Below, one piece after another: positions 14,732 through 47,011 of a stretch of 64,000 nucleotides of DNA (position 1 is the stretch's first letter; each line of letters opens with the position of its first letter). This DNA comes from Pseudochryseolinea flava (GTDB taxonomy: Bacteria > Bacteroidota > Bacteroidia > Cytophagales > Cyclobacteriaceae): NCBI RefSeq assembly GCF_003286915.1, contig NZ_QMFY01000014.1, positions 62,001 to 126,000 on the forward strand, read 5' to 3'. The position numbers and the translations under genes were made by a program. The notes beneath the pieces were generated by a model that was not told the DNA's origin, did no database searches, and saw only the letters and a list, made by a program, of their open reading frames with translations.

Positions 14732-14749
14732 ATGACATTTAATTGTCAT
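14732..14749. promoter_or_regulatory. Palindrome upstream of hybrid sensor
   Basis: ATGACA (14732-14737) and TGTCAT (14744-14749) form a perfect inverted repeat around TTTAAT, ending 32 bases before the sensor ATG. A near-identical 16-base copy (TGACATTTGATCGTCA) lies at 60163-60178. The position suits an operator over the promoter of the sensor gene. Confidence 0.5.
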
Positions 14750-14781
14750 TAACCAATCGTAGAATCTGTTCTCGACATGCC

Positions 14782-31421: not shown

Positions 31422-31736
31422 ATTTTGGCTGCAGTCGAAATTGTAAGCATCGATTTCAGTTTCAGGTTATTTCCAGCTTCCTGATCCGATAGGTTGTTGG
31501 GGCATACTTGACCAACGCTGTTCAGCAAATCCCATAGATCATTTTTAAGCAATAGCCCTTACGCGATATCCAGTCAGGTTGTCGAGTTTCTAATAGTGCA
31601 AACGTGTGCAAAATTCCTCGGCGGCTTTAATTGGAAGTTCCTCGGTGATCGAATAGCCAATTTCGATTACTTAATTGTCACATGAACACTTAACTAAAGT
31701 GTCACGTGAATGCATTATCACCTAACGAAACACTCT
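31422..31736. other. 315-base gap, promoter region of third SusC
   Basis: No gene seen. GTGTGCAAAATTCCTCG (31604-31620) is a weak 13-of-17 match to the shared motif found at 49690, 52274 and 19077. The last 60 bases hold direct and inverted repeats that are listed separately. Confidence 0.45.
31676..31710. promoter_or_regulatory. Direct and inverted repeats upstream of SusC
   Basis: TGTCACATGAA (31676-31686) is repeated as TGTCACGTGAA (31700-31710), start-to-start spacing 24 bases. Between them ACACTT (31686-31691) and AAGTGT (31697-31702) are inverted around AACTA. The array ends 26 bases before the SusC ATG, a fitting place for a dimeric activator or repressor. CTTAACTGTCACGTTAATGA at 49811-49830, over the AraC gene start, shares the CTTAACT and TGTCACGT elements. 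Confidence 0.45.
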
Positions 31737-34700
31737 ATGAGAAAACTTTATGCACTGTTAATCAGTATGCTTTTCTTTCTAGCATGCGAAGATGCGTGGG
31801 CGGGGAGCGGTGAACGGGTCATGATCACCAACATTCAACAGCAAGCCATTACTGGACAAGTGTTGGATGAAAGCAGCACACCCTTGCCAGGTGTGAATGT
31901 TCTTGTTCGAGGTTCTACAGGCGGAACGGTCACCGACGCTGAAGGAAACTTTTCATTAACCGGTGTGAGTGCCGATGCTGTACTGGTATTTTCTTTCATT
32001 GGCTTCAAAACAAAAGAAGTTAGTGTAAATGGGCAGACTGTTATTAATGTATCCCTTGACGCTGATGTGTTGTCATTAGACGAAGTTGTTGTTACGGCGT
32101 TAGGCGTGCAAAAGGAGTCAAAGAAACTTGGCTATGCAGTCACATCAGTAAAAACAGATGAACTGATCAATAACAGAACAACGAACGTGATGGAGTCGCT
32201 CGAGGGTAAAGTAGCGGGCTTGAATATTTCTCCACCGGCAGCCGGTGCGGGCGCAAGTATGCAGATACGTTTGCGCGGACAAGCTGCATTCGCGGGCGCC
32301 AACAATGCGCCACTCATTGTGATCAACGGTTTACCAATGGATCAAGGTGCGAGAAGTGCGAACGGAAATGGTGCGGTAAATCAGCGTGATCGTGGTGATA
32401 ATTTACAAAACATAAATCCCGATGACATTGAAAGTTTGACGGTTCTAAAAGGGTCAACAGCGGCGGCCATCTATGGTGCACGCGCGGCGAATGGTGCGAT
32501 CATTATCACAACGAAGTCAGGAGGCAAAGATCAAGGCATCGGAATAGATTTCACATCGAGTTACACCAGCTCTCATGCGTTGAATTTTCTTGATGAGATC
32601 ACGCAAACAGAATATGGCGCAGGAAGAGGCGGTGTGAGACCTCAGACACTAGGTGACGCACAGTCTAATGGTCAGTTTGGTTTTGGCGAACGATTAGACG
32701 GTAAGTTAACCATGAACTTCGATGGTGTAGAACGACCCTATTCTGCATATAAGGATAGACTTTTCGATTTTTTGCAAACCGGATCGAACTTCACGAACAC
32801 GTTAGGAATTTCAGGCAGCGGCGCCAACGGGAGTTTTCGCGTATCATTTTCAAATACTGATGCAAAAGGTATCGTTCCAATGAACGAATACAAGAAGCGC
32901 ATTTTCAATGTTGGTATCAATCACAATCTCACCAGCAAGTTGAGCCTGCAGCTTAATGTAAATTATGCTGCAGAACAAAACATTAACCCACCTCAAATCG
33001 GAACGCAAGGCGATGGTGCCATCAACTTCTTTACCCGTATGTCGATATCGACACCACTCATAGCTTTTGAGCAAAGCGCAATTAATCCGGATACCGATGC
33101 TGAATTTCGCACAAGCTCTTTCCTTGGTACTGTTAATAATCCATATTTTCCTATTCAGAAACGTCAGTTCTTCAATGATGATAGGAACCGCTTGCTGGCA
33201 ACAGCGACATTACGCTATAAGCTAACCGAATGGTTATACATTCAGGGGCGATATAATTTTGATCGCGGTTCGAACTTCATGGAGTGGAATCAACTCAATG
33301 GATCGGGAGCGCCATCAATTGTTGATGAATTTGGTAAGTTCCGAGGACGCTATGATATTCAACAAGACCAAACACAAGACATCAATGCTGACTTCCTCGT
33401 TGGCGGTAATAAAGAATTTGGAAAATTTTCGGTCGACGCTAGCGTCGGTGGTAACACATGGCGAACAAAATTCCAACAGCACTCGCAATATTCAAGAAGT
33501 TTTACAGTAGCCGATCTTTACACACTCAAGAATGGTACTATCACCTGGCTTAATGAGCCCGACGTTAATCTTCAAAACTATGCACCATACGTCTTTAATA
33601 GAACGCGCATCAACTCGCTCTATGGTTGGGCTGAATTTGGATACAACGGTTTAGCGTATATCAATTTTACGGGTCGACAAGATTGGTTCTCTGTATTAAA
33701 CCCTGATGATAACAGTGTGTTCTATCCTTCGGTGTCTGGTAGTTTCATCTTCTCTGAATTACTTGAAGAGCAAAACTGGTTGTCTTATGGTAAGTTCCGA
33801 GCCTCATGGGCAAAAGTTGGAAGCGCTAATGGTGTAAATCCCTACGACGGTATACTGAACTATATTATTAATCCGCCCTTTAGTAATCAGGCAACAGCTG
33901 GTTTGTCAGGCACACTCGCGCCAAATCCTTTGCTGCGACCGTTCACTGTCGTAGAGAAAGAAGTTGGCGTGGAGATGAGATTGTTCAACAACAGATTGCT
34001 CCTCGATATTGGTGCCTTTGATAAAGTAACCACAGACCAAATATTGGAAGTAGCCATTTCAAGTGCATCGGGTTTCAACAACACCAAACAGAATAAGGCT
34101 TCTCTACAAAATCGTGGTTTAGAAACATTGATTGAAGCAACACCGATTCAAGGGCGAGATTTTTCATGGACAACCTCTTGGAATAATGCTTACTTAAAAA
34201 CCGAGGTGCTCGATGTCGGTAACGAAAGCGGTACGATGTTGGTACTGTACTTCAACGGTACTGGAAACGAGTTCCTTGGCGAATTACGATACACCGAGGG
34301 ATTGGCGATGAATCAACTATATACAAGAACATACCGACGCAATGCAAATGGACAAGTTGTAGTTGATGCTAATGGGCGATTGTTGGAAACTACACCATCT
34401 ACGCCGGGTGCCGAAAAGACAAACGGGTTTCTTCCGGTTGGTAGTTCAATCCCTAAACACGTAGGGGGTTGGAATAACACTTTGCGCTATAAAAATCTTT
34501 CGCTCGGCATTCACATCGATTATAAATTCGGAGGTACTGTTCTTTCATCAACGCATTTAAATATGCTAAGACAAGGACATTCGAAACTCTCCTTGCAGGG
34601 ACGTCGCGAGGGAGAGAATGGAATTGTTTTCCCTGCCGTGTATGAGGCATCTGGTGAGCCCAACACAACTGCTGTAACAGACCTTCAAGGGTTCTATGCA

Positions 34701-34997
34701 GATTATCGCAATAAGCAAATTGGCGACCCTTTTGTCTTCAAGTCAGACTTTATTAAGCTTCGAAATATTTCCATTTCGTACAACTTCACAACCGCACTTC
34801 GAAAGGTTTCAGCTTTGAACTTTATCAAGGCACTTACACTTACGGCAGGTTGTCGCAATGTAGCGATTCTCTATAAAGACCTTCCTGGACTAGACCCTGA
34901 ATCAGTCCAGTCATCCGGCGATTTCCGAGCTGGTTACGAAAACGCAGCACTACCCACCACGCGTAATTACAACCTTACCTTAAACGCTAGATTTTAA
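31737..34997 (+). CDS. SusC/RagA-family TonB-dependent oligosaccharide transporter
   Basis: A complete 1086-residue transporter. ATG 31737 is preferred over 31710 because it directly begins the signal peptide (MRKLYALLISMLFFLACEDAWA). The regulatory-like domain (about 37-110) has TPLPGVNVLVRGS and TVTDAEGNFSLTG. The plug (about 120-255) has VVVTALGVQKESKKLGYAVTSVK and TAAAIYGARAANGAIIITT. The barrel finishes with NYNLTLNARF. The VVVTALG form of the SusC box marks it as a different SusC subgroup from the 24602 gene (VIVVGYG), so it likely imports a different glycan fragment. SusD begins four bases after the stop. Confidence 0.96.
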   Translation: MRKLYALLISMLFFLACEDAWAGSGERVMITNIQQQAITGQVLDESSTPLPGVNVLVRGSTGGTVTDAEGNFSLTGVSADAVLVFSFIGFKTKEVSVNGQTVINVSLDADVLSLDEVVVTALGVQKESKKLGYAVTSVKTDELINNRTTNVMESLEGKVAGLNISPPAAGAGASMQIRLRGQAAFAGANNAPLIVINGLPMDQGARSANGNGAVNQRDRGDNLQNINPDDIESLTVLKGSTAAAIYGARAANGAIIITTKSGGKDQGIGIDFTSSYTSSHALNFLDEITQTEYGAGRGGVRPQTLGDAQSNGQFGFGERLDGKLTMNFDGVERPYSAYKDRLFDFLQTGSNFTNTLGISGSGANGSFRVSFSNTDAKGIVPMNEYKKRIFNVGINHNLTSKLSLQLNVNYAAEQNINPPQIGTQGDGAINFFTRMSISTPLIAFEQSAINPDTDAEFRTSSFLGTVNNPYFPIQKRQFFNDDRNRLLATATLRYKLTEWLYIQGRYNFDRGSNFMEWNQLNGSGAPSIVDEFGKFRGRYDIQQDQTQDINADFLVGGNKEFGKFSVDASVGGNTWRTKFQQHSQYSRSFTVADLYTLKNGTITWLNEPDVNLQNYAPYVFNRTRINSLYGWAEFGYNGLAYINFTGRQDWFSVLNPDDNSVFYPSVSGSFIFSELLEEQNWLSYGKFRASWAKVGSANGVNPYDGILNYIINPPFSNQATAGLSGTLAPNPLLRPFTVVEKEVGVEMRLFNNRLLLDIGAFDKVTTDQILEVAISSASGFNNTKQNKASLQNRGLETLIEATPIQGRDFSWTTSWNNAYLKTEVLDVGNESGTMLVLYFNGTGNEFLGELRYTEGLAMNQLYTRTYRRNANGQVVVDANGRLLETTPSTPGAEKTNGFLPVGSSIPKHVGGWNNTLRYKNLSLGIHIDYKFGGTVLSSTHLNMLRQGHSKLSLQGRREGENGIVFPAVYEASGEPNTTAVTDLQGFYADYRNKQIGDPFVFKSDFIKLRNISISYNFTTALRKVSALNFIKALTLTAGCRNVAILYKDLPGLDPESVQSSGDFRAGYENAALPTTRNYNLTLNARF

Positions 34998-35001
34998 TAT
35001 C

Positions 35002-36549
35002 ATGAAAACCATAAAGAACTGCATAATATTGGGCCTCGCACTTTCACTCACCACGGGGTGTGACAAAGATTTCGTCGAGGTGAACACGAATCCATACGCC
35101 GTTTTAGATGTAGATCCGGCGCTCCTTTTTGCGGGTGCACAACGCACGCACTTGGGCACTTGGACGGCGGAACACACGATCGTTCAACACTTTGTTTGTC
35201 CGTACAATACCGGTGCAAATGTTGGCTTCAACTTCAATGAAGACATCGACTTAATTAACAATCCCAAGTGGGATCAGTCGTATCCCACAGCCATTCGCAA
35301 CTTGGTGCATGCAATAGATCTCTTGGGTGAAGAAACTAACCGGGTCAATTTGTTGAGCATGATTCGAATATGGAAAGCACAAGTTTTTATGGGTGTCGTC
35401 GATGAATACGGCGATGTTCCTTACTTCGATGCCGGTAAAGCATTGGACTTTGTATACTTTCCTACATACGACGACGACGCGGAAATTTATGAACATTTGT
35501 ATAATGAGTTAAAGGGAGCCATGGCAGCTTTTAATCCTGAAGCCGACTTCGTTCCGGAGGATTTGTTTTACGGTAAAAACAGTCCAAATCCGGCAGCAGA
35601 TGAAGCAGCACAAATTGAAAAATGGAGAAAACTTGGCAATTCACTTTTACTAAGATTAGGCATGCGTTATTCGAAGCTGGATCCTGATAAGGCTGAAAGT
35701 ATTGTGAAGGAAGCTATCGCAGGTGGCGTGATGACGTCCAATGCAGATAATGCCTACGTGAAGTATGGTAGTGGCGCTGTACATGCTGACAATAATAACT
35801 TGCGAAATTTTTCTCAGTTCAATTATGCAGCGGAGCCTTTCGTCGACCGATTGAAAGCAACCAACGATCCAAGAGCAAAATATATCCTCGCTACCTTCGA
35901 CGATCCGGGCGCTGTTGTCAATGACACAGACCCTGATACAGAATTAGAAAATCAGTTCGGTGTTCCAATTGGCGTGACCAGTGTCGATCTAGTTAATCCC
36001 GCATTACCATACCGCGGCGCAAGAGGAGCAGGTGTGAATTATTCACAAATGAACATATGGACCATCGCTTCGCCATCTGCGCCTGAATTTTTTGTCACCT
36101 ATGCACAAACATCATTGTTGTTAGCAGAGGCCGCATTTCGGGGATGGATCGATGGTGACGCTCAGGAGTTTTATGAGAATGCAATTATCGCTGATATGGA
36201 AACATATACATTGTATCCTCAAACAAAACCTATCACACAAAATGAGATCGAAGATTATCTCGCGGAGCCCGGCGTTGCTTACAACGAAACCGACGCGCTT
36301 GAACTCATCAACACGGAATATTGGGTGGTTAACTTACGGAACGGAACAGAAGCCTATGCGAATTTTAGGCGAAGTGGTTTTCCAGAGCTAAGTCCAAATC
36401 TGTTTAATACTAAACTCAATGGCGGCTTTGCCAGACGGATGTCGTACCCTGACCGGGAAGCATCGGCTAATGGCGATAGTTATGCTGAAGGCGCGAGCGC
36501 CATTGGTGGTGATAACTTGTTATCTCGTGTTTTTTGGGATGTCGAATAA
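35002..36549 (+). CDS. SusD/RagB-family lipoprotein (SusD_2-like)
   Basis: A 515-residue lipoprotein with lipobox LTTGC (Cys20) followed by DKDF. The N-terminus FVEVNTNPYAVLDVDPALLFAGAQ is characteristic of the SusD-like subgroup often annotated SusD/RagB-like 2. Internal motifs include RIWKAQVFMGVVDEYGDVPYFDA, GNSLLLRLGMRYSKLDP and TSLLLAEAAFRGW. It ends with DNLLSRVFWDVE rather than the common NPGW. It is coupled to the preceding SusC (four-base gap) and followed by terminator 36583. It would bind the oligosaccharide at the cell surface for that SusC. Confidence 0.94.
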   Translation: MKTIKNCIILGLALSLTTGCDKDFVEVNTNPYAVLDVDPALLFAGAQRTHLGTWTAEHTIVQHFVCPYNTGANVGFNFNEDIDLINNPKWDQSYPTAIRNLVHAIDLLGEETNRVNLLSMIRIWKAQVFMGVVDEYGDVPYFDAGKALDFVYFPTYDDDAEIYEHLYNELKGAMAAFNPEADFVPEDLFYGKNSPNPAADEAAQIEKWRKLGNSLLLRLGMRYSKLDPDKAESIVKEAIAGGVMTSNADNAYVKYGSGAVHADNNNLRNFSQFNYAAEPFVDRLKATNDPRAKYILATFDDPGAVVNDTDPDTELENQFGVPIGVTSVDLVNPALPYRGARGAGVNYSQMNIWTIASPSAPEFFVTYAQTSLLLAEAAFRGWIDGDAQEFYENAIIADMETYTLYPQTKPITQNEIEDYLAEPGVAYNETDALELINTEYWVVNLRNGTEAYANFRRSGFPELSPNLFNTKLNGGFARRMSYPDREASANGDSYAEGASAIGGDNLLSRVFWDVE

Positions 36550-36683: not shown

Positions 36684-37700
36684 ATGAAAAAAACTACCCT
36701 CTTCACTATCGCGTTTGTATTTTTTTGCTTGTTGATACTCTCTTGCGCCGATGATGATGATTCAAGTCAAGAAGAAGTAAGTCAAGGGCTAATTGCCACT
36801 GATGCGCAGCTTGTCAATTTTGGATCGGGATATTCCTTCACGGAAGGTCCTGCTGTCGATAAAAATGGAAATGTTTTCTTTACCGATCAGCCCAATGATA
36901 TCATATACAAATGGGAAGCAAGTAGCGGAACAATCTCGCCGTTCTTAGAAGAAACAGGACGTGCCAATGGAATGGCTTTCGATAAGGATGGTAACCTGAT
37001 TGTATGTGCAGACATGCACGGAGAGATCTGGAAGATTATGCCCAATGGCACACATCAGGTTCTCATCGAAGACTACCAAGGCAAACTTTTAAATGGACCT
37101 AACGACGTTTGGATTAATCCTGTTACCGGCGGCATGTATATCACAGATCCAATGTTTCCGCGTGGTTATTGGAACGATGAAGATCCACGAAAATCGAATA
37201 ATCCAAATTGGCCACCCACTTATTCGCAACAGGCAGATGAAGGTAAAGGAGGTCACGTTTATTTTCTTGCGCCTGGTGCTGATGAATTGACACGTGTGAC
37301 AACACAAGCAGGGTGGGATGCTGACGCTTGGCCCAATGGCGTTGTAGGAACAGCGGATGGAAAAAAACTTTATGTGAACAAATGGGCAGGCGATAACATG
37401 GGCGGTACATGGGTTTTCGACATCAACGCAGACGGAACTCTTTCCAATATGAAGAAGTTCGCAGACATGGGTGGTGATGGTATGTCGATGGACGAACGTG
37501 GAAATATTTATATCAGCAATGGATTTGGTGTTGTGGTATTTGATCCGTCGGGTAAAGAGCTGGTAAGAATATTTACGGGTGGCGGCGCTACAAACAACGT
37601 CTTTGGTGGAAGCGACGGGAAAACATTATTCATAACCGGGCCAATCGACAAAGTAAATGGATTGAAAATGAATGTTAAGGGCATTGAAAAATTTGAGTAA
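36684..37700 (+). CDS. SMP-30/gluconolactonase-family lipoprotein
   Basis: A 338-residue six-bladed propeller lactonase, predicted to open aldono- or uronolactones to the acids. ATG 36684 starts a lipoprotein signal (FCLLILSC, Cys21); the longer frame from 36576 would run through the terminator and is rejected. Cys21 is followed by ADDDDSSQEE, an acidic stretch resembling the surface-export signal of Bacteroidota lipoproteins. Metal ligands typical of the family are visible as Glu in SFTEGPAVD, Asn in NGPNDVWINP and Asp in GGDGMSMDERG. It lies directly upstream of the transporter, RraA-like and dehydratase genes. A lactonase step fits both the sugar-acid module here and the pentonate route on the opposite strand. 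Confidence 0.88.
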   Translation: MKKTTLFTIAFVFFCLLILSCADDDDSSQEEVSQGLIATDAQLVNFGSGYSFTEGPAVDKNGNVFFTDQPNDIIYKWEASSGTISPFLEETGRANGMAFDKDGNLIVCADMHGEIWKIMPNGTHQVLIEDYQGKLLNGPNDVWINPVTGGMYITDPMFPRGYWNDEDPRKSNNPNWPPTYSQQADEGKGGHVYFLAPGADELTRVTTQAGWDADAWPNGVVGTADGKKLYVNKWAGDNMGGTWVFDINADGTLSNMKKFADMGGDGMSMDERGNIYISNGFGVVVFDPSGKELVRIFTGGGATNNVFGGSDGKTLFITGPIDKVNGLKMNVKGIEKFE

Positions 37701-37892
37701 ACATGTCTTTGTTTAAAATCTTTCACTGTGCATTAATGGAAGTATAAATGGTTTGATCAATCGTTCTTTCAAGTAAATAAGCATACCGCGGATTTGGGAA
37801 ACCAGTATGCTTCCAATGGTAGATCGAATCGGTCAATACATTCGCTCTGTGTTGATCTTGTTTCTTCGCCAATGGGTTACTGTGGTAGAAAA

Positions 37893-37931
37893 GGAATTTG
37901 AGTAGTTCTCGGACTACTCAGTTCCGTTTTT
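37893..37931 (+). terminator. Rho-independent terminator after lactonase
   Basis: TGAGTAGT (37899-37906) and ACTACTCA (37913-37920) form the core stem, extended by GGAA (37893-37896) with TTCC (37922-37925), then GTTTTTACC. The rest of the 309-base gap 37701-38009 shows no gene. It contains TTGTTTAAAATC (37709-37720), a partial copy of the shared motif. Confidence 0.65.
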
Positions 37932-38009
37932 ACCGGATTATTCAACGGGTATCGCTCCTTGTTAATTGATCTTTCGTTTTTATGGGAGAAATTTAATTCC
38001 GAAGTATTC

Positions 38010-39149
38010 ATGCCTACGCTCAATCGTTCACTGATCATTGCCTGTGTCTTCTTTGCGCTCTGTTTCATACTGGCAACGTCGTTGAATGCTCATCTTTATG
38101 CGGGGTGGTTGCTGATGATGTTTTTTGTTTCACTTGCCTTTTTTCTGCGACGTTATGAAATGTTGAAAGGTTATTCATTTACCGTGATGATTCTCGCGGC
38201 AGTGAGTTTAGCGATGTACTATCCGCAATATTTTGTTTCTGTCGGCGAAGTGAAGTTATCGATCTTGATTGTACCACTGATGCAATTAATCATGTTCGGT
38301 ATGGGCACTGGTTTGAGTATTGATGATTTTTTAGCCGTTGTGAAAATGCCGAAAGGGGTGATTGCCGGCGTTGGCTGTCATTACCTCATTATGCCCTTGG
38401 TGGCATTTCTCATTACACGTCTATTTTCATTTCATGATGAAGTCGCAGCCGGAATTATTCTGATCGGAAGTTGTCCCAACGGACTAGCGTCGAACGTGAT
38501 GACTTATTTAGCGCGTGCAAATCTCGCGCTGTCTGTAACGCTAACGGCGATATCAACATTCATCTCTCCACTCGTCACACCACTATTTATGCAGTTGTTC
38601 GCTGGGGAATATGTTCACATAGATTTTTGGGCGATGGTATGGGATATCACGAAGATTGTTATCCTGCCGGTATGCGCGGGTCTTGTCTTCAATAGATTTT
38701 TCCATGGTCGGTCCAGATTACTTGATAACATTATGCCTGCCATTTCAATGATCGGTATAGGTCTGATCATCGTCGTCATTACGGCAGCAGGTCGTGATTC
38801 GTTACTTGTTGTCGGTGGTTATTTAATTCTGGCGGTGATCATTCATAATATCAGCGGTTATTTTTTTGGTTATTGGTCTGCACGCATGTTGCGTATGGAG
38901 GAAAAAGACTGTCGTACAATTGCCATTGAAGTGGGTTTACAAAACGCCGGACTTGGATCAAGCCTGGCATTGGCCATGGGCAAATTGTCGACGGTTGGAC
39001 TTGCACCAGCAATATTTGCACCCGTCATGAACATCACGGGATCGTCGTTGGCGCTGTGGTGGCGTGGGCGACCGTTGCAGAATGCCGAAGAAAGTATCGA
39101 TTCACCCAACGCCGACGAACCTATCACCTCACTTCGAAATCATGAATAG
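38010..39149 (+). CDS. BASS-family (bile acid:sodium symporter-like) transporter
   Basis: A 379-residue inner-membrane protein with about ten transmembrane helices. ATG 38010 precedes the first helix directly; the TTG at 37959 adds 17 polar residues. BASS family features are MFGMGTGLSIDDF, the ILIGSCPNGLASNVMTYLARANLALSV sodium-site region, and EVGLQNAGLGSSLAL in the second half. Members carry organic anions with sodium, including keto acids and sugar-acid-like compounds. The gene overlaps the RraA-like gene by eight bases, so it is coupled to the sugar-acid enzymes. Import or export of an acid from this module is the likely role; the substrate is inferred from context only. Confidence 0.88.
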   Translation: MPTLNRSLIIACVFFALCFILATSLNAHLYAGWLLMMFFVSLAFFLRRYEMLKGYSFTVMILAAVSLAMYYPQYFVSVGEVKLSILIVPLMQLIMFGMGTGLSIDDFLAVVKMPKGVIAGVGCHYLIMPLVAFLITRLFSFHDEVAAGIILIGSCPNGLASNVMTYLARANLALSVTLTAISTFISPLVTPLFMQLFAGEYVHIDFWAMVWDITKIVILPVCAGLVFNRFFHGRSRLLDNIMPAISMIGIGLIIVVITAAGRDSLLVVGGYLILAVIIHNISGYFFGYWSARMLRMEEKDCRTIAIEVGLQNAGLGSSLALAMGKLSTVGLAPAIFAPVMNITGSSLALWWRGRPLQNAEESIDSPNADEPITSLRNHE

Positions 39150-40101
39150 AATATTCGAATTAAAAAGATCGTTAACCGTGATAACGATCATGGTACAATC
39201 GATCTGCGCTGTAGGGCAACAGATCTCGAAAGAGGAGCTCATCTTTCTCACACCAGAGTGGCATGGCGAACGCTTTGCAGATGGTAGACCGAAAGTTCCT
39301 GACGCAATACTTGATCGCATGAAACAGGTCACGCTCGAAGAAGCATGGGCTGTATTGCGTAACGAAAATTTTAAACATCAATTTGATGGTGACTGGATGA
39401 CCATTAATCCTGACAGCGTATTGGTCGGTAGAGCAGTGACCGCCACATTCATGCCGGGGCGCCCTGATATTCATCGCGTGATTGACGATCGTGGACATAC
39501 ACGCGACAAAAGAGTGAAGTCTCAAAACTCGTGGCCAATCGATTTGCTAACAAGACGCGATGTGTATGTCGTTGATCAATTTGGCGCGCATGAAGATGGA
39601 CCAACCATAGGGGATAATTTAGGAAACTCAATTTTTACCAAGACAGGAAACGGTATTGTCTACAACGGAGCCGTGCGCGATATCAATGGATTGAAAGCGA
39701 TCGGATCTTTTACTTCCTTCTTTCGCAGCTATCATCCGTCTCATCATCTCAACGATCCAAAAGGTCAATTGAATACGACTTTAGTAGGTATCAATACGCC
39801 AACGCGAATTGGTAATGCGACAGTAATGCCAGGAGATGTTGTGCTTGGGCGTAATGGCGGTGTGATTTTTATTCCAGCGCATTTGGCTGAAAAGGTAGTC
39901 AAGATTTCAGAAGTGGTTCGCCTTCGTGATATGTTCGGCCATCAGCGACTTCGTGAACAGAAATATACACCTGGGCAAATTGACACACGGTGGTCTGATG
40001 ATATTGAAAAAGATTTTTTACAATGGCTTCGATCCAATGCGGAAAAACTTCCCGTGCCCAAAGAGCAGATTCAAGAATTGTTAAAGCAACGAACCTGGTA
40101 G
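39142..40101 (+). CDS. RraA-fold (HMG/CHA aldolase-like) protein with signal peptide
   Basis: A 319-residue member of the RraA / class II pyruvate-aldolase-like fold. ATG 39142 overlaps the transporter stop by eight bases and gives a signal-like N-terminus (SLTVITIMVQSICAVGQQ). The RraA core spans about 75-270, with VLVGRAVTATFMPG, DVYVVDQFG, the active-site loop GPTIGDNLGNSIFTKTGNGI, and VYNGAVRDINGL (family pattern G-x-x-x-D-R, here with RD). NATVMPGDVVLGRNGGVIFIPA closes the fold. It is longer than stand-alone RraA (about 160 residues), with N- and C-terminal extensions. Aldol cleavage of a 2-keto-3-deoxy or related acid fits its place beside a sugar-acid dehydratase. An export signal on such a protein is unusual. 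Confidence 0.85.
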   Translation: MNRIFELKRSLTVITIMVQSICAVGQQISKEELIFLTPEWHGERFADGRPKVPDAILDRMKQVTLEEAWAVLRNENFKHQFDGDWMTINPDSVLVGRAVTATFMPGRPDIHRVIDDRGHTRDKRVKSQNSWPIDLLTRRDVYVVDQFGAHEDGPTIGDNLGNSIFTKTGNGIVYNGAVRDINGLKAIGSFTSFFRSYHPSHHLNDPKGQLNTTLVGINTPTRIGNATVMPGDVVLGRNGGVIFIPAHLAEKVVKISEVVRLRDMFGHQRLREQKYTPGQIDTRWSDDIEKDFLQWLRSNAEKLPVPKEQIQELLKQRTW

Positions 40102-40122
40102 GTAAAACTAAATCATACGAAG

Positions 40123-41406
40123 ATGTCAAGTTCAAAATCTAGACGCGCGTTTTTTAAAAGTGCTATGGCCGCAGGCGCTATGCTCGCACCGTTGAGTACA
40201 ACGTTTGGTAACAGTCTTATTCAGGCGGTCGATAGAAGTAATACAAACTCAAAACCGGCTGACTTAAAGATAACAGAAGTTCATTGTGCTTTTATAAAAT
40301 ATGGCAGTAGTCTTTTTGTAAAAATTCATACCGATCAGGGCATCTATGGATGTGGTGAAGGTGTTGATGCTGTCGCGGGCACATATCATTTTGTGAAGGC
40401 GTTAGAGTTTCGTCTCAAGGGAAAAAATCCGTTAAATGTTCATCGAATATTTGACGATCTGCGAAAGTCTGGAATTTTTCAAGGAGCTCAGGCTGGGATG
40501 TATATCGCTGTACTCTCTGCAATAGAAACTGCTTTGTGGGACATTGCTGGGAAGGCACTTGGTGTGCCGGTATATCAGTTGCTTGGCGGAAAGTTTAGAG
40601 ATAAAATAAGAGTGTATTGCGACACCGCCTTATATCAAAGAAATCTTCCAACGCCGGCAGATTTTGCTAAGTCAGCACTTGAAGCAAAGAAGATGGGATT
40701 TACAGCGATCAAGTTCGACCTTGATCAACGAAATGATCCAACCAAGTACGATAGCTACAATTGGACTGCAAGTCCTGGTGAATTAAAACGTATGGTCGAT
40801 CAGGTAACTGCGGCACGCGAGGCAGTAGGTCCTGATATTGATATCTGTTGTGATATGCACGGACGATACGATGCAGTAACAGGACAGCAAATTGCAAAAC
40901 GTCTTGAGCATCTTAATTTGATGTGGCTGGAAGAACCTATTCCTGCGGAAAATGCAGAGGCATACAAAATCATTTCAGATTCGACAACGACCCCGATCTG
41001 TGCAGGCGAGAATTTGTATCTGGCATATGGCTTTCGCCGATTGCTAGAGCTTGGCGCCGTAGACATCATTATGCCTGATCTTCAAAAAGCTGGTGGGCTG
41101 GGAGAGGGACAGCGTATTGCCAACCTCGCAAGCCTGTATTATGTCCCTTTTGCGCCGCACATGGTAGCTTCATTTCTAGGCGCGATGGCGTCTTGCCACG
41201 TATGCGCGTCCGTTCCAAATTTTATGATCCTCGAGTGGCAAATGTATTTTCATACCGATCCAATGTATAAAGACATTGTAACCTACGATGGCACCATGGT
41301 TGAGAACGGATTCATTACGCTTTCAGAAAAACCTGGTATTGGCGTGGATATTAATGAAGAAGGAATGAAAAAGTATGCAGCACCAGGTTATCCCTTCTTT
41401 AAATAG
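40123..41406 (+). CDS. Enolase-superfamily sugar-acid dehydratase (galactonate/mannonate dehydratase-like) with Tat-like signal
   Basis: A 427-residue mandelate-racemase-type enzyme that should dehydrate an aldonate or uronate-derived acid to a 2-keto-3-deoxy acid. The N-terminus SRRAFFKSAMAAGAML is a twin-arginine signal. The capping domain spans about 50-165, then the barrel follows. Visible residues: metal ligand D244 and catalytic-type H246 in CCDMHGR, metal ligands E270 (WLEEP) and E296 (CAGEN), and H346 in APHM. The DxH plus later His pattern matches galactonate and mannonate dehydratase subgroups rather than racemases. The C-terminus (LEWQMYFHTDP, LSEKPGIGVDIN) is also of that type. 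It lies 21 bases after the RraA-like gene. Substrate is not decidable. Confidence 0.9.
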   Translation: MSSSKSRRAFFKSAMAAGAMLAPLSTTFGNSLIQAVDRSNTNSKPADLKITEVHCAFIKYGSSLFVKIHTDQGIYGCGEGVDAVAGTYHFVKALEFRLKGKNPLNVHRIFDDLRKSGIFQGAQAGMYIAVLSAIETALWDIAGKALGVPVYQLLGGKFRDKIRVYCDTALYQRNLPTPADFAKSALEAKKMGFTAIKFDLDQRNDPTKYDSYNWTASPGELKRMVDQVTAAREAVGPDIDICCDMHGRYDAVTGQQIAKRLEHLNLMWLEEPIPAENAEAYKIISDSTTTPICAGENLYLAYGFRRLLELGAVDIIMPDLQKAGGLGEGQRIANLASLYYVPFAPHMVASFLGAMASCHVCASVPNFMILEWQMYFHTDPMYKDIVTYDGTMVENGFITLSEKPGIGVDINEEGMKKYAAPGYPFFK

Positions 41407-41443: not shown

Positions 41444-42760
41444 CTATTGTATGATGTAATCTAGCGCTAATACGCCAATGAGGCCGATGATCGAAACGAT
41501 GGTTTCCATTATCGTCCAGGAACGAAACGTGTCTTTGATGGTGAGTCCGAAGTATTCTTTGAATAACCAAAATGCTGTGTCGTTCACGTGTGAGCAAAAT
41601 AAACTTCCCGCACCAATGGAAAGCACCAGCAGGTTGGGGTCAATGTTCATATGTTGCGTCAATGGGTAAACAACACCAGCAGCAGTAAGTCCTGCGATGG
41701 TAGCCGATCCCAATGCCAAACGTAATACGGCTGTGACAACCCATGCGAGCACGAGTGGAGGCCAGTCTAGCAATTTAAATGCATCTGCAATCTCATCGCT
41801 AACGCCGCTGTCGAAGAGAATTTGTTTTAATATCCCAGCGCTTCCGATGATTAAGAGGATCATGGCAATGTCCTTGACGGCCTCAGCGTAGATCATCATA
41901 ATGGACGATAATTTCTTTCCTGTGCGAATGCCGAGCGTGTACGTAACGATGACGATGGTTAGTAACATCGCTTGATTCGGCTCAGCAATAAAAAGAAGTG
42001 CCTGTTCCGCGTGTTGATTTCCTGCAAAAATTTTTGACAGCAATGTCGTGAGTCCAATGAGTACGACTGGAAGCAGTGAAGAAATGAGACTGTTAACGGT
42101 GCCCGGCAATGTATCATGTGGTCTGTCGGCGCATAGGGATAACGTTGGTGGTTTTGTTTGTATAGATGCTACGGTGCGCGCAAATAATGGACCGGCGATA
42201 ATGATTGCAGGAATTGCAATGATGATACCATATCCAAACGTGGTTGTAATGTCAGCATTGAATTGTGTTACCAATGCAAGTGGAGAAGGATGCGGTGGAA
42301 GAAATCCATGCATCACCGATAGCGATGCTAGCATCGGAAGCCCTACATAGATTAATGGAAGTTTGTATTGATAGGCCACAGAGAATATGATGGGGATCAT
42401 CAAGACGAACCCAACATTATAGTAGAGCGGAATACCGACTAAAAAACCTGTTAAACTCATTGCCCACACCAAATGACGCGCGCCAAAGAATTGTTGCATC
42501 GTCAATGTGATGCGCTGTGCTGCGCCACTTTCGGCAACGAGCTTTCCAAGCATGGCGCCTAATGCTATGACAATGACAAGTGATCCAAGGGTGTCTCCAA
42601 TTCCTTTGTTCACCGATTTTGAGATATCATCAAGCGGCATTCCCAATAGCAATGCCGCGAGCGTTCCAACAATCAGAAAGGCTAGAAACGGATTTAACTT
42701 AACCCACGTGATGAGTAGTACAAGGCAAGTAATACAAGCTGCAAGAAGTATAAATGTCAT
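41444..42760 (-). CDS. GntP-family gluconate/sugar-acid permease
   Basis: A 438-residue inner-membrane permease with about 12 hydrophobic segments. Family hallmarks are GIPLYYNVGFVLMIPI, SVMHGFLPPHPSPLAL, ALGSATIAGLTAAGVV and GSLFCSHVNDTAFWLFKEYF. GntP proteins import gluconate and related aldonates with protons. It is the last gene of the - strand operon, 13 bases after the pentonate dehydratase, so it most likely brings in the aldonic acid that the dehydratase consumes. It converges on the enolase-superfamily gene with only 37 bases between stops. Confidence 0.93.
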   Translation of the reverse strand: MTFILLAACITCLVLLITWVKLNPFLAFLIVGTLAALLLGMPLDDISKSVNKGIGDTLGSLVIVIALGAMLGKLVAESGAAQRITLTMQQFFGARHLVWAMSLTGFLVGIPLYYNVGFVLMIPIIFSVAYQYKLPLIYVGLPMLASLSVMHGFLPPHPSPLALVTQFNADITTTFGYGIIIAIPAIIIAGPLFARTVASIQTKPPTLSLCADRPHDTLPGTVNSLISSLLPVVLIGLTTLLSKIFAGNQHAEQALLFIAEPNQAMLLTIVIVTYTLGIRTGKKLSSIMMIYAEAVKDIAMILLIIGSAGILKQILFDSGVSDEIADAFKLLDWPPLVLAWVVTAVLRLALGSATIAGLTAAGVVYPLTQHMNIDPNLLVLSIGAGSLFCSHVNDTAFWLFKEYFGLTIKDTFRSWTIMETIVSIIGLIGVLALDYIIQ

Positions 42761-42773
42761 CTCAATAGAAGCG

Positions 42774-44486
42774 TCAGTGGGAATCGCGTGCTACCTTTGA
42801 TCCGGATTTACCTACCAGGAAATTGAGGTCTGCACCTTTATCTGCTTGCTGAACATGATTCACATATAAATTCACATAACCACGATCCGCAATTGCATCG
42901 GGCTTTTTCCAACGCGTACGCCGGACTGCAAGTTCTTCGTCAGATACGTGGAGATGGATAAGACGTGCCTCAACATCTAACTCAATGATGTCTCCATTTT
43001 CCACCAATGCTAGGTTTCCGCCGATAGCAGATTCGGGTGATATGTGAAGCACTACTGTTCCGTATGCTGTTCCACTCATGCGTCCGTCAGAGATGCGAAC
43101 CATGTCAGTAATTCCTTTGTCGAGTATTTTTTTTGGTAGTGGCATGTTGCCAACTTCAGGCATTCCTGGATACCCAACAGGACCAACACTTTTCAAAACC
43201 ATGACACACGTTTCATCGATGTCGAGGTTGGGATCATCTACCCGCTCATGGTAGTCTTCAATATTTTCGAAAACCACTGCGCGTCCTTTATGTTTCATCA
43301 GCGAAGGTGTTGCTGCAGAAGGTTTAATGACTGCCCCATTGAGCGCAAGATTTCCTTTAACAACAACGATCCCTGCTTCTTTGATGATCGGATTTTCATA
43401 GCTCGCAATCACGTCGCTATTGTAGCAAGTCACCTTACTGTGAATGTTTTCTCCATGCGTTTTTCCATTCACTGTCATGGTGTTCATATGCAAGACAGCG
43501 GCTAGCTCTTTCATGATGACCGGAAGACCACCCGCGTAGTAAAAATCCTCCATCAAGAATTTACCAGAAGGCATCAGATTCAATAGTAATGGAATTTGGC
43601 TTCCAATTTTGTCAAAGTCATCGAGATTGAGGTCAACGCCAATTCGTCCTGCAATCGCCGTGAGGTGAATAATAAAGTTTGAAGAACCACCGACTGCGGC
43701 ATTTACCTTGATCGCGTTTTCAAAAGCTTCACGTGTTAAGATTTTTGAAATCTTAAGATCTTCTTTTACCATTTCTACGATTCGTCTTCCCGATAGCTGA
43801 GCAAGTACTTTCTTGCGTGAATCTACCGCAGGAATAGCCGCAGCGCCTGGCAGGGTCATTCCCAACGACTCGACCATACAAGCCATCGTTGACGCTGTGC
43901 CCATCGTCATGCAATGACCTGGACTACGAGACATACAACTCTCCGCGTGAGAGAATTCATCATAGGTCATCTTTCCGGTCTTCAGATCGTCAGTAAATTT
44001 CCAAACAACCGTGCCTGATCCAATATCTTTTCCTTGGTGCTTGCCATTAAGCATCGGACCTCCCGGGACTACGAGTGTTGGCAAGTCTACACTGGCAGCG
44101 CCCATCATTGTTGAGGGCGTCGTTTTATCACATCCTGTAAGTAGTACCACACCGTCGAGCGGATTACCTCGAATAGATTCTTCAGCATCCATGCTCGCAA
44201 GATTGCGGAACAACATCGCGGTTGGTTTTAATAGTGTTTCTCCAAGCGACATAATGGGAAACTCGAGTGGAAATCCACCAGCTTCGTAGACTCCACGCTT
44301 TACATATTCCGCGATATCGCGAAGGTGTGCGTTGCATGGTGTGAGCTCAGACCATGTATTGCAAATGCCAATCACAGGACGACCATCAAAAAGATCTTCA
44401 GGAAAGCCTTGGTTTTTCATCCAACTTCTGTAGATGAATCCCATCTTATCTTTTTTTCCAAACCATTCGGCGCTTCTATACTTCAT
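42774..44486 (-). CDS. IlvD/Edd-family pentonate (L-arabinonate/D-xylonate) dehydratase
   Basis: A 570-residue iron-sulfur dehydratase converting a pentonate to the 2-keto-3-deoxypentonate. ATG 44486 is used; TTG 44492 would add two residues. The likely [2Fe-2S] cysteines are C51 (SELTPCN), C119 (LLTGCDKTTPS) and C192 (SPGHCMTMGTASTM). Their spacing equals that of the characterised rhizobial L-arabinonate dehydratase as I recall it (59/127/200). SDGRMSGTAYGTVVLHISPE carries the conserved serine region. The length and NTWSEL start separate it from amino-acid-pathway IlvD. It lies downstream of the aldehyde dehydrogenase (80-base gap) and upstream of GntP. Confidence 0.92.
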   Translation of the reverse strand: MKYRSAEWFGKKDKMGFIYRSWMKNQGFPEDLFDGRPVIGICNTWSELTPCNAHLRDIAEYVKRGVYEAGGFPLEFPIMSLGETLLKPTAMLFRNLASMDAEESIRGNPLDGVVLLTGCDKTTPSTMMGAASVDLPTLVVPGGPMLNGKHQGKDIGSGTVVWKFTDDLKTGKMTYDEFSHAESCMSRSPGHCMTMGTASTMACMVESLGMTLPGAAAIPAVDSRKKVLAQLSGRRIVEMVKEDLKISKILTREAFENAIKVNAAVGGSSNFIIHLTAIAGRIGVDLNLDDFDKIGSQIPLLLNLMPSGKFLMEDFYYAGGLPVIMKELAAVLHMNTMTVNGKTHGENIHSKVTCYNSDVIASYENPIIKEAGIVVVKGNLALNGAVIKPSAATPSLMKHKGRAVVFENIEDYHERVDDPNLDIDETCVMVLKSVGPVGYPGMPEVGNMPLPKKILDKGITDMVRISDGRMSGTAYGTVVLHISPESAIGGNLALVENGDIIELDVEARLIHLHVSDEELAVRRTRWKKPDAIADRGYVNLYVNHVQQADKGADLNFLVGKSGSKVARDSH

Positions 44487-44566
44487 ATTCAAAATACTTA
44501 GAGATGTAAATTGTTTTTGGGCTAGCGCTAGGTGGGGAAACTAACGCTGTCGTTAAATATTTGCGT

Positions 44567-46159
44567 TTACTTGATTGCTTCTTTTGTTCGCACGCCGTTG
44601 ATGAGGCGCCAGATCGCGAGTGGATTTTCGTCTTTCAGTTCTGCTGGCAACATTTGCTGCGGCATATTTTGAAACGACACAGCACGTGTAAAACGGAAGA
44701 TAGATGCTGTACCCACAGAAGTACTACGACCATCCGTTGTCGCAGGGAAAGGACCACCGTGTACCATCGCGCTGCAAACCTCTACACCCGTGGGAAATCC
44801 GTTAATGATAATCCTACCAACTTTTTGTGTCAAAATATCCAACAGATCTTCGTGCGCCAACAAGTCCTCTTCAGTGCCGTGAATGGTCGCTGTTAAATGA
44901 CCAGAAAGATTACGCGCCGCCGAAAGCATCTCATCTTTAGTTTGCATCTCAACGAGTATACTGGTAGGGCCAAAAATTTCTTCGGCTAAATCTGGGTGAT
45001 CAGATAATACATGCGATGTTGTTTTGAAAAGCATTGGATGGGCGCTGTTATTTTCGCCAGTTCGTTTTCCTTGCGCTAATACATCTATTTGATCGATTGC
45101 CTGATGCCGTGCGATACCGGTGGTGTAGGCGTTGAAAATACCATCCGTTAACATTGCACCACCCGAAGTATTTTCGAATGCTGCTTTAAGATTCTGCAGG
45201 AAAATCTCAGATGAAGTATCCTTTCGATACAACATCATTCCTGGGTTCGTACAGAATTGGCCGACACCGAGTGTTACCGAAGCAGCAAAACCTTTTGCAA
45301 GTTCTTCAGGATTTTTTCTCAATGCTCCCGGGAGTACGAACACAGGATTCGTACTACCCATTTCGGCATATACTGGAATGGGGTGCTCGCGTTGTGCTGC
45401 CGCATCGAAGAGCGCTTTACCTGCAGCGAATGAGCCGGTTAGCCCTACTGCTTTGATTTGGCTGTGCTTCACCAACTGCATGCCGACAACATTTCCATCA
45501 CCATGTAGGAGTGAGAAAACACCGTCGGGCATTTGTGTTTGTTTTGCTGCCGAAAGAATCGCTTTGGCAACAAGTTCTGATGTTGCAGGATGCGCCGAAT
45601 GTGCCTTAAAGACAACAGGACAACCTGCGGCGAGTGCAGAGGCTGTATCACCTCCCGCTACAGAAAATGCAAGCGGAAAATTACTTGCTCCAAAAACAAC
45701 AACCGGCCCCAAACCGACATGAAGATAACGCATGTCCGGTTTAGGTAACGGTTTACGGAGAGGGTCTGCCGTTTCTATTCGCGCATCTAACCAAGAACCT
45801 TCACGAAGCATCGACGCGAACATCAATAATTGGTTCTTGGTGCGATTCCTTTCACTCTCGATTCTAGTTTTTGGTAACGCTGTTTCTTGAGAACAAATGT
45901 CGATGAGCTGCTCACCAAGTTCTTCAATTTCCATTGCAATCGTCTCGAGAAAATATGCTTTTTCTATCCCTGTTTTCTTTCGGTACGTTTGGAATGCAGT
46001 GCCCGCTTTTTCACAAGCCAACGCTACCTCATCGCGTGTTGCCTTGGAGAATGTATACTGAAGTTTATCACCTGTTGATGCATTTGTCGATCGCAATGTT
46101 TTTGCACCCTCGGCATGATCAGTAAAACCAATGAGCTGTTTACCTTCAATCTGTATCAT
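44567..46159 (-). CDS. Alpha-ketoglutaric semialdehyde dehydrogenase (2,5-dioxovalerate dehydrogenase)
   Basis: A 530-residue aldehyde dehydrogenase of the KGSADH type, which oxidises 2,5-dioxopentanoate to 2-oxoglutarate with NAD(P). The catalytic Cys303 is in GVGQFCTNPG and Glu266 in YAEMGSTNPVFV. The cofactor region shows VFGASNFPLAFSVAGGDTASALAAGCPVVFKAH, which is typical of this subgroup rather than of succinate-semialdehyde or betaine enzymes. It starts nine bases after the FAH-family stop and is followed by the pentonate dehydratase, giving the complete lower oxidative pentose route in one operon. Confidence 0.92.
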   Translation of the reverse strand: MIQIEGKQLIGFTDHAEGAKTLRSTNASTGDKLQYTFSKATRDEVALACEKAGTAFQTYRKKTGIEKAYFLETIAMEIEELGEQLIDICSQETALPKTRIESERNRTKNQLLMFASMLREGSWLDARIETADPLRKPLPKPDMRYLHVGLGPVVVFGASNFPLAFSVAGGDTASALAAGCPVVFKAHSAHPATSELVAKAILSAAKQTQMPDGVFSLLHGDGNVVGMQLVKHSQIKAVGLTGSFAAGKALFDAAAQREHPIPVYAEMGSTNPVFVLPGALRKNPEELAKGFAASVTLGVGQFCTNPGMMLYRKDTSSEIFLQNLKAAFENTSGGAMLTDGIFNAYTTGIARHQAIDQIDVLAQGKRTGENNSAHPMLFKTTSHVLSDHPDLAEEIFGPTSILVEMQTKDEMLSAARNLSGHLTATIHGTEEDLLAHEDLLDILTQKVGRIIINGFPTGVEVCSAMVHGGPFPATTDGRSTSVGTASIFRFTRAVSFQNMPQQMLPAELKDENPLAIWRLINGVRTKEAIK

Positions 46160-46168
46160 GATATGTGG

Positions 46169-47005
46169 TTATGCAACTGTGTTTTCAAGTGTACCAATAT
46201 GTTCAATCGTGATTTTTATCACATCGCCTTCTCGTAAGGTGAAGGTGTCCGGTGGAACAATGCCTGTGCCTGTCATGAGAAAAGCACCATGTGGAAAGCT
46301 TAGCTCTTGAAAAAGATATTCTGCTAATTCTGTCTGCGTGCGTTTCATTCGATCGATCGATATTTCTCCATAGAAAACTGATTCATGGCTGCGGTCAATA
46401 GAAATACGGATCATAGCCTTAGGATCAATCGCTTGCTCAGGAACGTATAAGCACGGACCAATGGCAGCGGATCCGTCATAGCATTTTGCTTGTGGCAGGT
46501 ATAGCGGATTTTCTCCTTCAATATCTCGCGATGACATATCGTTACCTATCGTATATCCTTCAATAGATCCCGACGAACAAATAAACAGCACAAGCTCTGG
46601 CTCTGGTACATTCCACTTCGAGTCTTTTCTTATCCGGACAGTTCCACCCGTTCCGATAACGCGGTGAGGCGCGGCTTTAAAAAACAACTCAGGTCGTTTC
46701 GCTTCATACACGCGAGCATAAAAATCTCCACCACCGGCGTCTTTTGATTCTTCCATTCTTGCTTCGCGACTTCTTAAGTATGTAACACCAGAAGCCCACA
46801 CTTCTTGTTTCGAAATAGGAGCCAGTATGTCCCTGCGTGGTTGTCCCGAGAGAGATGGTTCTGGATCAAGCGTATGAATCTCTTCCAGCACTTTCCGAAA
46901 TAAGCCAGACCGATTAACAAAAACATCCCAGTCAGATTCTGGTGAAAGAAAATATTCGTTTAAATGTTCGATTACTATTCCGCGTTTCGTGTTGTATATC
47001 TTCAT
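46169..47005 (-). CDS. FAH-family enzyme, probable 2-keto-3-deoxypentonate dehydratase
   Basis: A 278-residue fumarylacetoacetate-hydrolase-fold protein. ATG 47005 is chosen; it lies six bases after the GH3 stop, and a TTG at 47011 is less likely. Metal ligands of the fold are visible in [12 protein letters not shown] (two Glu) and [11 protein letters not shown] (Asp). [18 protein letters not shown] and [20 protein letters not shown] complete the pattern. In Weimberg-type pathways a FAH-fold enzyme dehydrates 2-keto-3-deoxypentonate to alpha-ketoglutaric semialdehyde. The neighbours are exactly the preceding and following enzymes of that route. Other FAH activities (hydrolase, isomerase) cannot be excluded from sequence alone. 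Confidence 0.87.
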
Positions 47006-47011
47006 GTTCAA

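Follow-up and report, generated by a model that had tools for sequence, protein, structure and literature searches.

A conserved pair of RraA-fold and dehydratase genes with export signals in Bacteroidota, and its possible role in periplasmic sugar-acid catabolism

The steps of the Weimberg / L-arabinonate non-phosphorylative pathway normally all follow uptake. A locus of Pseudochryseolinea flava (Bacteroidota) raises the question of whether the catabolism of sugar acids can begin before the inner membrane is crossed. The locus lies in a stretch of 64,000 nucleotides (contig NZ_QMFY01000014.1, positions 62,001 to 126,000; this whole stretch is called the window hereafter), in which open reading frame (ORF) and Pfam analysis placed a four-gene module on the + strand at 36684-41406. 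A preliminary description, made from the sequence alone, had noted export signals on three of the encoded enzymes and had proposed a periplasmic or surface route for a sugar acid, perhaps (4-O-methyl)glucuronate freed by GH115, before uptake of the product. We report here that the core unit is the pair formed by the RraA-fold protein and the dehydratase, often accompanied by SusC/SusD and BASS, that the export signals of this pair are, judging by their conservation, almost certainly real, and that the module probably serves for periplasmic dehydration, to which we assign a probability of roughly 0.7. The module comprises the following genes:

36684..37700, + strand: SMP-30/gluconolactonase-type beta-propeller lipoprotein (the lactonase; ATG at 36684; Pfam SGL 80.9 bits)
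38010..39149, + strand: BASS-family sodium symporter of the inner membrane (ATG at 38010, TTG at 37959 possible; Pfam SBF 143 bits)
39142..40101, + strand: RraA-fold protein with a Sec-type leader (residues 1-25), mature from QQIS
40123..41406, + strand: enolase-superfamily (MR/MLE, DgoD-like) sugar-acid dehydratase with the leader motif SRRAFFK (MR_MLE_C 205 bits)

All four families (SGL, SBF, RraA-like, MR_MLE N and C) exceed the Pfam cut-offs, and the features first read from the letters were borne out. The leader of the lactonase ends in the lipobox LLILSC, followed by ADDDDSSQ; the Sec-like signal of the RraA-fold protein ends in CAVG-QQIS; the twin-arginine motif of the dehydratase belongs to a protein that starts with MSSSKSRRAFFKSAMAAG at 40123; and the BASS and RraA genes overlap by eight bases (BASS end 39149, RraA ATG 39142).

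Families and export signals of the enzyme pair

The signals were judged by evolution, comparing the conservation of leader features with that of the mature protein. In the dehydratase, R7, R8 and F10 (RR-F) are kept in all 26 aligned orthologues, and the mean pairwise identity in these rows rises from 0.31 over residues 2-6 to 0.86 over residues 7-10, falls to 0.36 over residues 11-42 and reaches 0.75 over residues 45-427; S-RR-x-F-x-K near the N-terminus is the form of a twin-arginine motif. The pattern RRx[FLIM][FLIMV] occurs within the first 75 residues of 143 of the 144 distinct dehydratase homologues of the neighbourhood loci, against 33 of 1208 other ORFs, some of which look by eye like proteins of the twin-arginine translocation (Tat) system. 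The sole homologue devoid of it, from L138, is a different kind of protein with 26% identity. IlvD, aldehyde dehydrogenase, FAH, FGGY and AraC proteins encoded in the same loci have neither the RR motif nor a hydrophobic leader (0/56), and three other enolase-fold proteins found in the window's genome are leaderless. The genome of L108 encodes two leaderless proteins that exceed the galactonate dehydratase cut-off of 311 (694.7 and 338.9 bits), indicating that the leader is not general to such enzymes. A search for TatC in 31 genomes detected it in 30, the window's own among them, the remaining genome being 89% complete, and a TatA-family protein was found in the window's genome.

For the RraA-fold protein, mean pairwise identity among 26 aligned proteins is 0.19 over residues 1-25 versus 0.77 over residues 26-319, with a hydrophobic run and then a conserved Gln in the leader. 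Of the 136 RraA homologues encoded in these loci, 118 have a strongly hydrophobic leader, a number that rises to 127 when the cut-off is relaxed. By eye, six of the nine ORFs that fail the looser rule keep a leader (L072, L090, L132, L133, L119 and L168); L089 is a split gene, and L081 and L167 have doubtful starts. In the genome with the split gene (G071; L089 / L188), RraA is in two pieces, one with an in-frame stop, and the adjoining dehydratase is whole. All 17 more distant RraA loci (<57% identity) have a leader by eye. The export signals are thus considered genuine, since the leader letters vary freely while the features persist, as in true leaders. Signals arising by chance and misannotated starts were ruled out by the contrast between leader and mature protein, by the family controls and by the control within the window's own genome; examined by conservation, the signal-less homologues or later starts that the preliminary description had named as grounds for abandoning its proposal did not emerge.

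Both MR/MLE domains of the dehydratase exceed their cut-offs (PF13378, 205.2 bits with a cut-off of 29.4; PF02746, 43.1 with a cut-off of 22), its nearest solved structure is 2qq6, and D244, H246, E270, E296, H346 and E371 are invariant in 26 rows and are the same residues in the 2qq6 alignment; we take them to be the DgoD-type metal ligands and the His acid/base. No NCBIfam equivalog that would assign a substrate is passed by any of the four module proteins; the nearest for the dehydratase is galactonate dehydratase PRK14017 (263.8 bits, cut-off 311).

The RraA-fold protein agrees with the RraA-like family in both profile and fold. A first AlphaFold model, from a 26-row alignment, was poor (pLDDT, the predicted local distance difference test, of 53) and was set aside; a second, from a 60-row alignment, reached a pLDDT of 90. 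A search of solved structures with the single sequence gave two weak matches. In the 60 rows, aligned with the HMG/CHA aldolase 3noj, G157, R179 and D180 are fully conserved, D158 almost fully, the R-D pair presumably binding the keto acid and the metal. None of the specific aldolase models is passed by this protein (PRK09262, 45.5 of 179 bits; TIGR02798, 43.9 of 304.5). On these sequence features, we consider an aldolase activity in this setting slightly better than an even bet, and the role of RraA is the least certain step of the scheme below.

The conserved unit and its neighbourhood

Searches of 118 genomes, among them that of the window, detected RraA in 40 and the dehydratase in 33 (E 1e-20 and 1e-60, respectively). 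A scan of named genomes yielded 387 relatives, of which the best 80 are, by their titles, all Bacteroidota or Rhodothermia, a set biased to close relatives. Across the phylum, the module is patchy, since matches at 1e-60 occur in only 24 of 395 genomes, again including the window's own. Neighbourhoods were compared in 93 distinct loci besides the window, where identical RraA ends were merged and related species are counted several times. ORFs were called as the longest open frame with greedy removal of overlaps. This procedure missed at least one genuine RraA gene, that of L080, which is masked by a longer spurious frame and is outside the 93; neighbours are also undercounted in loci truncated by the end of a contig.

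RraA is followed on the same strand by the dehydratase as the next ORF in 87 of the 93 loci, and within 300 bases in 86. The six others are L103, L136, L145, L150 and L151, at contig ends, and L157. Three of them (L136, L145 and L157) do have the dehydratase as the next gene, but on the opposite strand. These three loci are from flavobacteria, and there the dehydratase converges with RraA; after it come BASS, a small cluster of unclassified proteins (DUF4440-like in L144), RraA2, a third dehydratase, SusD and SusC.

Over the whole stretch available for each locus, SusC and a PF12771-type SusD occur together in 39 of the 93 loci and BASS in 41. Within 10 kb, we found a second RraA in 36 loci, a third dehydratase class in 38, FecR in 20, FGGY in 15 and AraC in 15. 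The order is FecI-FecR-SusC-SusD-RraA-dehydratase-RraA2-dehydratase3-BASS in L081, and AraC-FGGY-RraA2-dehydratase3-BASS-RraA-dehydratase, opposite SusC, in L120 and L127. In the 17 distant RraA loci, RraA adjoins the dehydratase in seven and BASS in six (in both cases within ~560 bases), and four have neither in ~1.5 kb on each side, an arrangement that fits RraA as an enzyme whose product BASS imports.

The lactonase is an accessory rather than a core component, since it lies 5' of BASS in only 2 of the 93 other loci, both from the genus of the window genome; a four-gene unit centred on the lactonase was therefore ruled out as a conserved system. In these two loci, L062 and L063, the order SusC-SusD-lactonase-BASS-RraA-dehydratase is the same as in the window. 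The closest structures to the lactonase in the Protein Data Bank are the gluconolactonases 3e5z and 3dr2. Its lipid-bearing Cys is directly followed by an acidic run (C-ADDDD here, C-SDDD in the two nearest relatives, L062 and L063), resembling SDDDD, the signal by which Bacteroidetes direct lipoproteins to the cell surface (PMC5080379). For this reason the surface is a more likely site than the periplasm, and the enzyme is probably surface-exposed.

In the window, an adjacent SusC and SusD pair (31710-36549) lies directly 5' of the module, and a predicted Weimberg-type gene set, made up of an IlvD/EDD dehydratase, FAH and aldehyde dehydrogenase, occupies 42774-47011 on the - strand:

19203..22187, + strand: GH115 alpha-glucuronidase of the same xylan locus (Pfam GH115 487 bits)
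31710..34997, + strand: SusC-type TonB-dependent outer-membrane transporter, 5' of the module (TIGR04056 598 bits, above cut-off)
35002..36549, + strand: SusD-like lipoprotein (PF12771; SusD-like_2 233.5 bits)
41444..42760, - strand: GntP-type gluconate/aldonate permease (TIGR00791 487 bits, above cut-off)
42774..44492, - strand: IlvD/EDD-type aldonate dehydratase, L-arabinonate dehydratase-like, leaderless (PRK06131 924 bits, above cut-off; PRK13016 858 bits, cut-off 882)
44567..46159, - strand: aldehyde dehydrogenase, possibly of the 2,5-dioxopentanoate type (Aldedh 165 bits; dioxovalerate model only 102 of 750 bits)
46169..47011, - strand: FAH-family protein, possibly a 2-keto-3-deoxy-pentonate dehydratase (FAA_hydrolase 77.7 bits)
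49827..52249, + strand: AraC regulator and FGGY kinase, gluconokinase-like but below the cut-off of that model; recurrent neighbours of the module elsewhere

The remainder of the window is a xylan locus with GH3, GH43, GH9, GH95, GH115 and esterases. The leaderless GntP/IlvD/aldehyde dehydrogenase/FAH aldonate route (41444-47011, - strand) faces the exported module, and the genome would carry cytoplasmic and exported dehydratases for related acids. The SusD at 35002-36549 is of the PF12771 (SusD-like_2) type, whereas that at 1283-2794 is of the SusD_RagB type; PF12771-type homologues lie within 10 kb of the module in 40 of the 93 loci and may be a mark of small acidic ligands. A hybrid two-component system of 1400 residues (sensor, receiver, AraC-type output), a customary kind of regulator of such loci, is encoded at 14743-18945.

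A proposed periplasmic route and its alternatives

From gene order and protein families we infer a route, including its compartment, substrate, order of reactions and BASS cargo, as follows. SusC/SusD would carry a sugar acid across the outer membrane and, in the window's form of the module, the surface lactonase may first open lactones. The Tat-exported enolase-superfamily enzyme would then dehydrate the acid to a 2-keto-3-deoxy acid in the periplasm, and the Sec-exported RraA-fold enzyme may split this to pyruvate and a short aldehyde. The BASS symporter would import the resulting keto acid with sodium, and cytoplasmic FAH and aldehyde dehydrogenase (a DapA-like aldolase in other genomes) would complete the breakdown. 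Periplasmic dehydration followed by keto-acid import is suggested by the fact that the genes of an outer-membrane (SusCD) and an inner-membrane (BASS) transporter flank the pair. The module BASS matches the ASBT-type structures 4n7w and 3zuy and exceeds the SBF family cut-off, but scores 250.2 bits against the PanS equivalog (cut-off 400). BASS proteins transport pyruvate, glycolate, chain-elongated 2-keto acids and pantoate (PMC10645422), and we propose, from the gene order, that the module BASS imports the keto-acid product. Of the exported route before uptake outlined in the preliminary description, the conserved exported pair beside uptake genes holds, and product uptake by BASS is read from the gene order. 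The entire flow, from SusCD to the cytoplasmic finish, appears reasonably likely on this sequence-based reading.

Loci in which the cytoplasmic end of the route accompanies the pair provide further support. In L099, L108, L123, L134 and L154, FAH and aldehyde dehydrogenase share a gene run with the pair, and this run lacks IlvD. The draft genomes of L134 and L154 gave no match to the window's IlvD at 1e-50, and the single IlvD-family gene in each passes the model of dihydroxy-acid dehydratase, an amino-acid enzyme (1043 bits, cut-off 710). These two genomes encode 15 proteins with an MR/MLE profile. All seven of the dehydratase type carry an RR leader (L209, L215, L219, L220; L210, L216, L218); L209, L210, L216, L218 and L219 were placed in this type by kinship and the rest by score, and L220, in which the RR is followed by EAM, falls outside the RR motif count. 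Among the other eight, L222 and L223 have RR and are unclassified, L212 and L213 are RR-less and epimerase-like below cut-off, L224 and L226 pass o-succinylbenzoate synthase, and L228 and L229 are enolase-like. With no window-type IlvD and RR on every dehydratase-type MR/MLE protein, the best explanation for L134 and L154 is that FAH is fed by an exported enzyme. The runs of L128 and L144 contain a DapA-like aldolase, an FGGY kinase and a class II aldolase, which are likely cytoplasmic consumers of such acids.

Aldonates are favoured as the substrate, with methylglucuronate as the main rival. In the whole stretch of each locus, aldonate-type genes (FAH, aldehyde dehydrogenase, IlvD, GntP or FGGY) occur in 27 of the 93 loci and glucuronate-type genes (GH67, UxuA, UxaC, GH115 or glucuronoyl esterase) in 10; in the window itself, pentonates are likely because of its IlvD-FAH-aldehyde dehydrogenase set. 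The glucuronate substrate first suggested for the module is therefore only partly sustained: UxuA lies near the pair in seven Spirosoma-type loci (L073, L137, L142, L153, L156, L171 and L172; five from Spirosoma and one from Larkinella), but aldonate-type neighbours are commoner. The run in these loci is RraA-dehydratase-(GH115-UxaC)-MFS-(esterase)-UxuA-GH67-(SDR), with parts absent in some; in L156 it reads RraA-dehydratase-GH115-UxaC-MFS-UxuA-GH67.

Several observations weigh against the periplasmic route. In the available sequence, parts of which are short stretches, 52 of the 93 loci lack BASS and 54 lack the SusC and SusD pair. The chemistry of RraA is uncertain because its scores fall far short of the cut-offs of the NCBIfam aldolase models, and if FAH uses the intact 2-keto-3-deoxy acid, cleavage by RraA would compete with it. 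The absence argument from L134 and L154 is weak, these being draft genomes and the search having covered the IlvD and MR/MLE families but not UxuA, UxaA or GarD; moreover, only these two of the five loci provide it, since a window-type IlvD is encoded elsewhere in the genomes of L099 and L123 and two leaderless galactonate dehydratases in that of L108. As to the signals, the Pfam TAT_signal profile gives the window dehydratase 15.3 bits, below the cut-off of 22.7, and returned no row for seven other dehydratase N-termini; the TIGR01409 cut-off is passed by five of these eight N-termini, the window's own being below it; and the leader has no obvious AxA cleavage site. The low Tat score would suit ordinary cytoplasmic sugar-acid enzymes whose N-termini are merely signal-like, but the fixed RR-F within a variable leader, the contrast in RR frequency between dehydratases and other ORFs and the leaderless relatives present in the same genomes make this explanation very improbable.

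With the signals real, RraA could still be a binding or accessory protein, the periplasmic step being carried out by the dehydratase alone. RraA folds include a non-enzymatic RNase E regulator, which together with the low aldolase scores and with an FAH in the same gene run that needs the uncut 2-keto-3-deoxy acid lends some weight to this idea; the invariance of G157, R179 and D180, which match positions of the HMG/CHA aldolase, and the joint duplication of the two genes (RraA2 and the third dehydratase class within four flanking ORFs in 29 of the 93 loci) speak against it, and we regard it as unlikely, if worth keeping in mind. Less probable still is that the substrate of the pair is (4-O-methyl)glucuronate released from glucuronoxylan by GH115/GH67, the dehydratase acting on the uronate end with loss of the 4-O-substituent before RraA and other genes take over. 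The GH115 of the window and the UxuA near the pair in seven loci, six of which also have GH67, accord with such a substrate. However, the lower count of glucuronate-type neighbours does not, UxaC and UxuA already process free glucuronate in the cytoplasm, enolase-superfamily dehydratases known to us act on aldonates and aldarates, and the Spirosoma link may mean only a common xylan locus. We continue to prefer periplasmic dehydration of aldonates by the exported pair.

Tat export of enolase-superfamily enzymes may extend beyond the module, as RR leaders are also present on the MR/MLE proteins L215, L216, L220, L222 and L223; L220 scores nearest D-mannonate dehydratase, below its cut-off. In L154 (14765-17744) and L134 (14762-17730), the genes 3' of RraA/dehydratase encode a RidA-like protein and a DgaE-like pyridoxal phosphate (PLP) ammonia-lyase, each with an RR close to its N-terminus, as well as an amidohydrolase with a hydrophobic leader; these are additional enzymes of the sugar-acid type that look exported. 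A tentative generalization, which we hold to be possible rather than probable, is that across the phylum Tat dehydratases of several stereospecificities (with a PLP ammonia-lyase and a RidA-like protein in some genomes) make periplasmic 2-keto-3-deoxy acids, that secreted RraA splits them and that BASS imports pyruvate or keto acids instead of sugars, which would amount to an extracytoplasmic non-phosphorylative Entner-Doudoroff pathway.

Significance and relation to known systems

If the periplasmic route is correct, many Bacteroidota of soil, fresh water and the sea would carry out part of their sugar-acid catabolism before the inner membrane is crossed, and a subgroup of BASS proteins and the exported RraA proteins would gain a likely role. 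Diverse acids would be funnelled into few keto acids, for which one transporter would suffice, a testable reason for a periplasmic stage. Plant and algal polysaccharide loci would also be read differently, an example being the DgoD-type dehydratase deemed cytoplasmic in PMC5613140.

No description of an exported RraA-dehydratase pair was found in the open-access literature searched, subscription papers being mostly outside this coverage; to that extent, the earlier remark that no described system of this form was known stands. The enzymes belong to known superfamilies, and the novelty lies in compartment and coupling. The HMG/CHA aldolase (3noj) and RraA proteins share the fold, the R-D pair and the G-D pair with the module RraA, which differs in its leader, in ~50 extra C-terminal residues, in its ~17-21% identity to the closest folds and in passing no equivalog. 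Likewise, the DgoD-like MR/MLE dehydratases (2qq6) have the domain architecture and the acid-base and metal-type residues of the module dehydratase, but not its twin-arginine leader of ~44 residues.

Chemistry on monosaccharides outside the cytoplasm and prior to uptake has precedents in the periplasmic sugar oxidation of Pseudomonas and Gluconobacter and in the 3-keto-glycoside cleavage by exported oxidoreductases in Bacteroides. These systems resemble the module in compartment and timing; however, they involve oxidation rather than dehydration and aldol cleavage, and other enzyme families. By sequence, as judged from the ASBT structures, the module BASS shares its family with PanS, ASBT and plant BASS2/5/6 (PMC10645422), and differs in scoring below the PanS cut-off.

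The enolase and FAH families take part in the Weimberg / L-arabinonate non-phosphorylative pathway (PMC9795676). Its chemical steps are the same as those predicted here, and its IlvD, FAH, aldehyde dehydrogenase and GntP are encoded on the opposite strand of the window, whereas the window's second dehydratase and aldolase-like protein bear export signals. The nearest published case found is ZGAL_587-589 of Zobellia galactanivorans, which comprises a periplasmic gluconolactonase, GntT1 and DgoD (PMC5613140). Like the module, this polysaccharide-induced unit belongs to a member of the Bacteroidota and combines a lactonase outside the cytoplasm with a DgoD-type dehydratase, and it includes a gluconate permease. 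In the available text of that report, however, the dehydratase is described as cytoplasmic, import precedes dehydration, and neither RraA nor BASS is named in the unit, whereas the module of P. flava would place dehydration before import.

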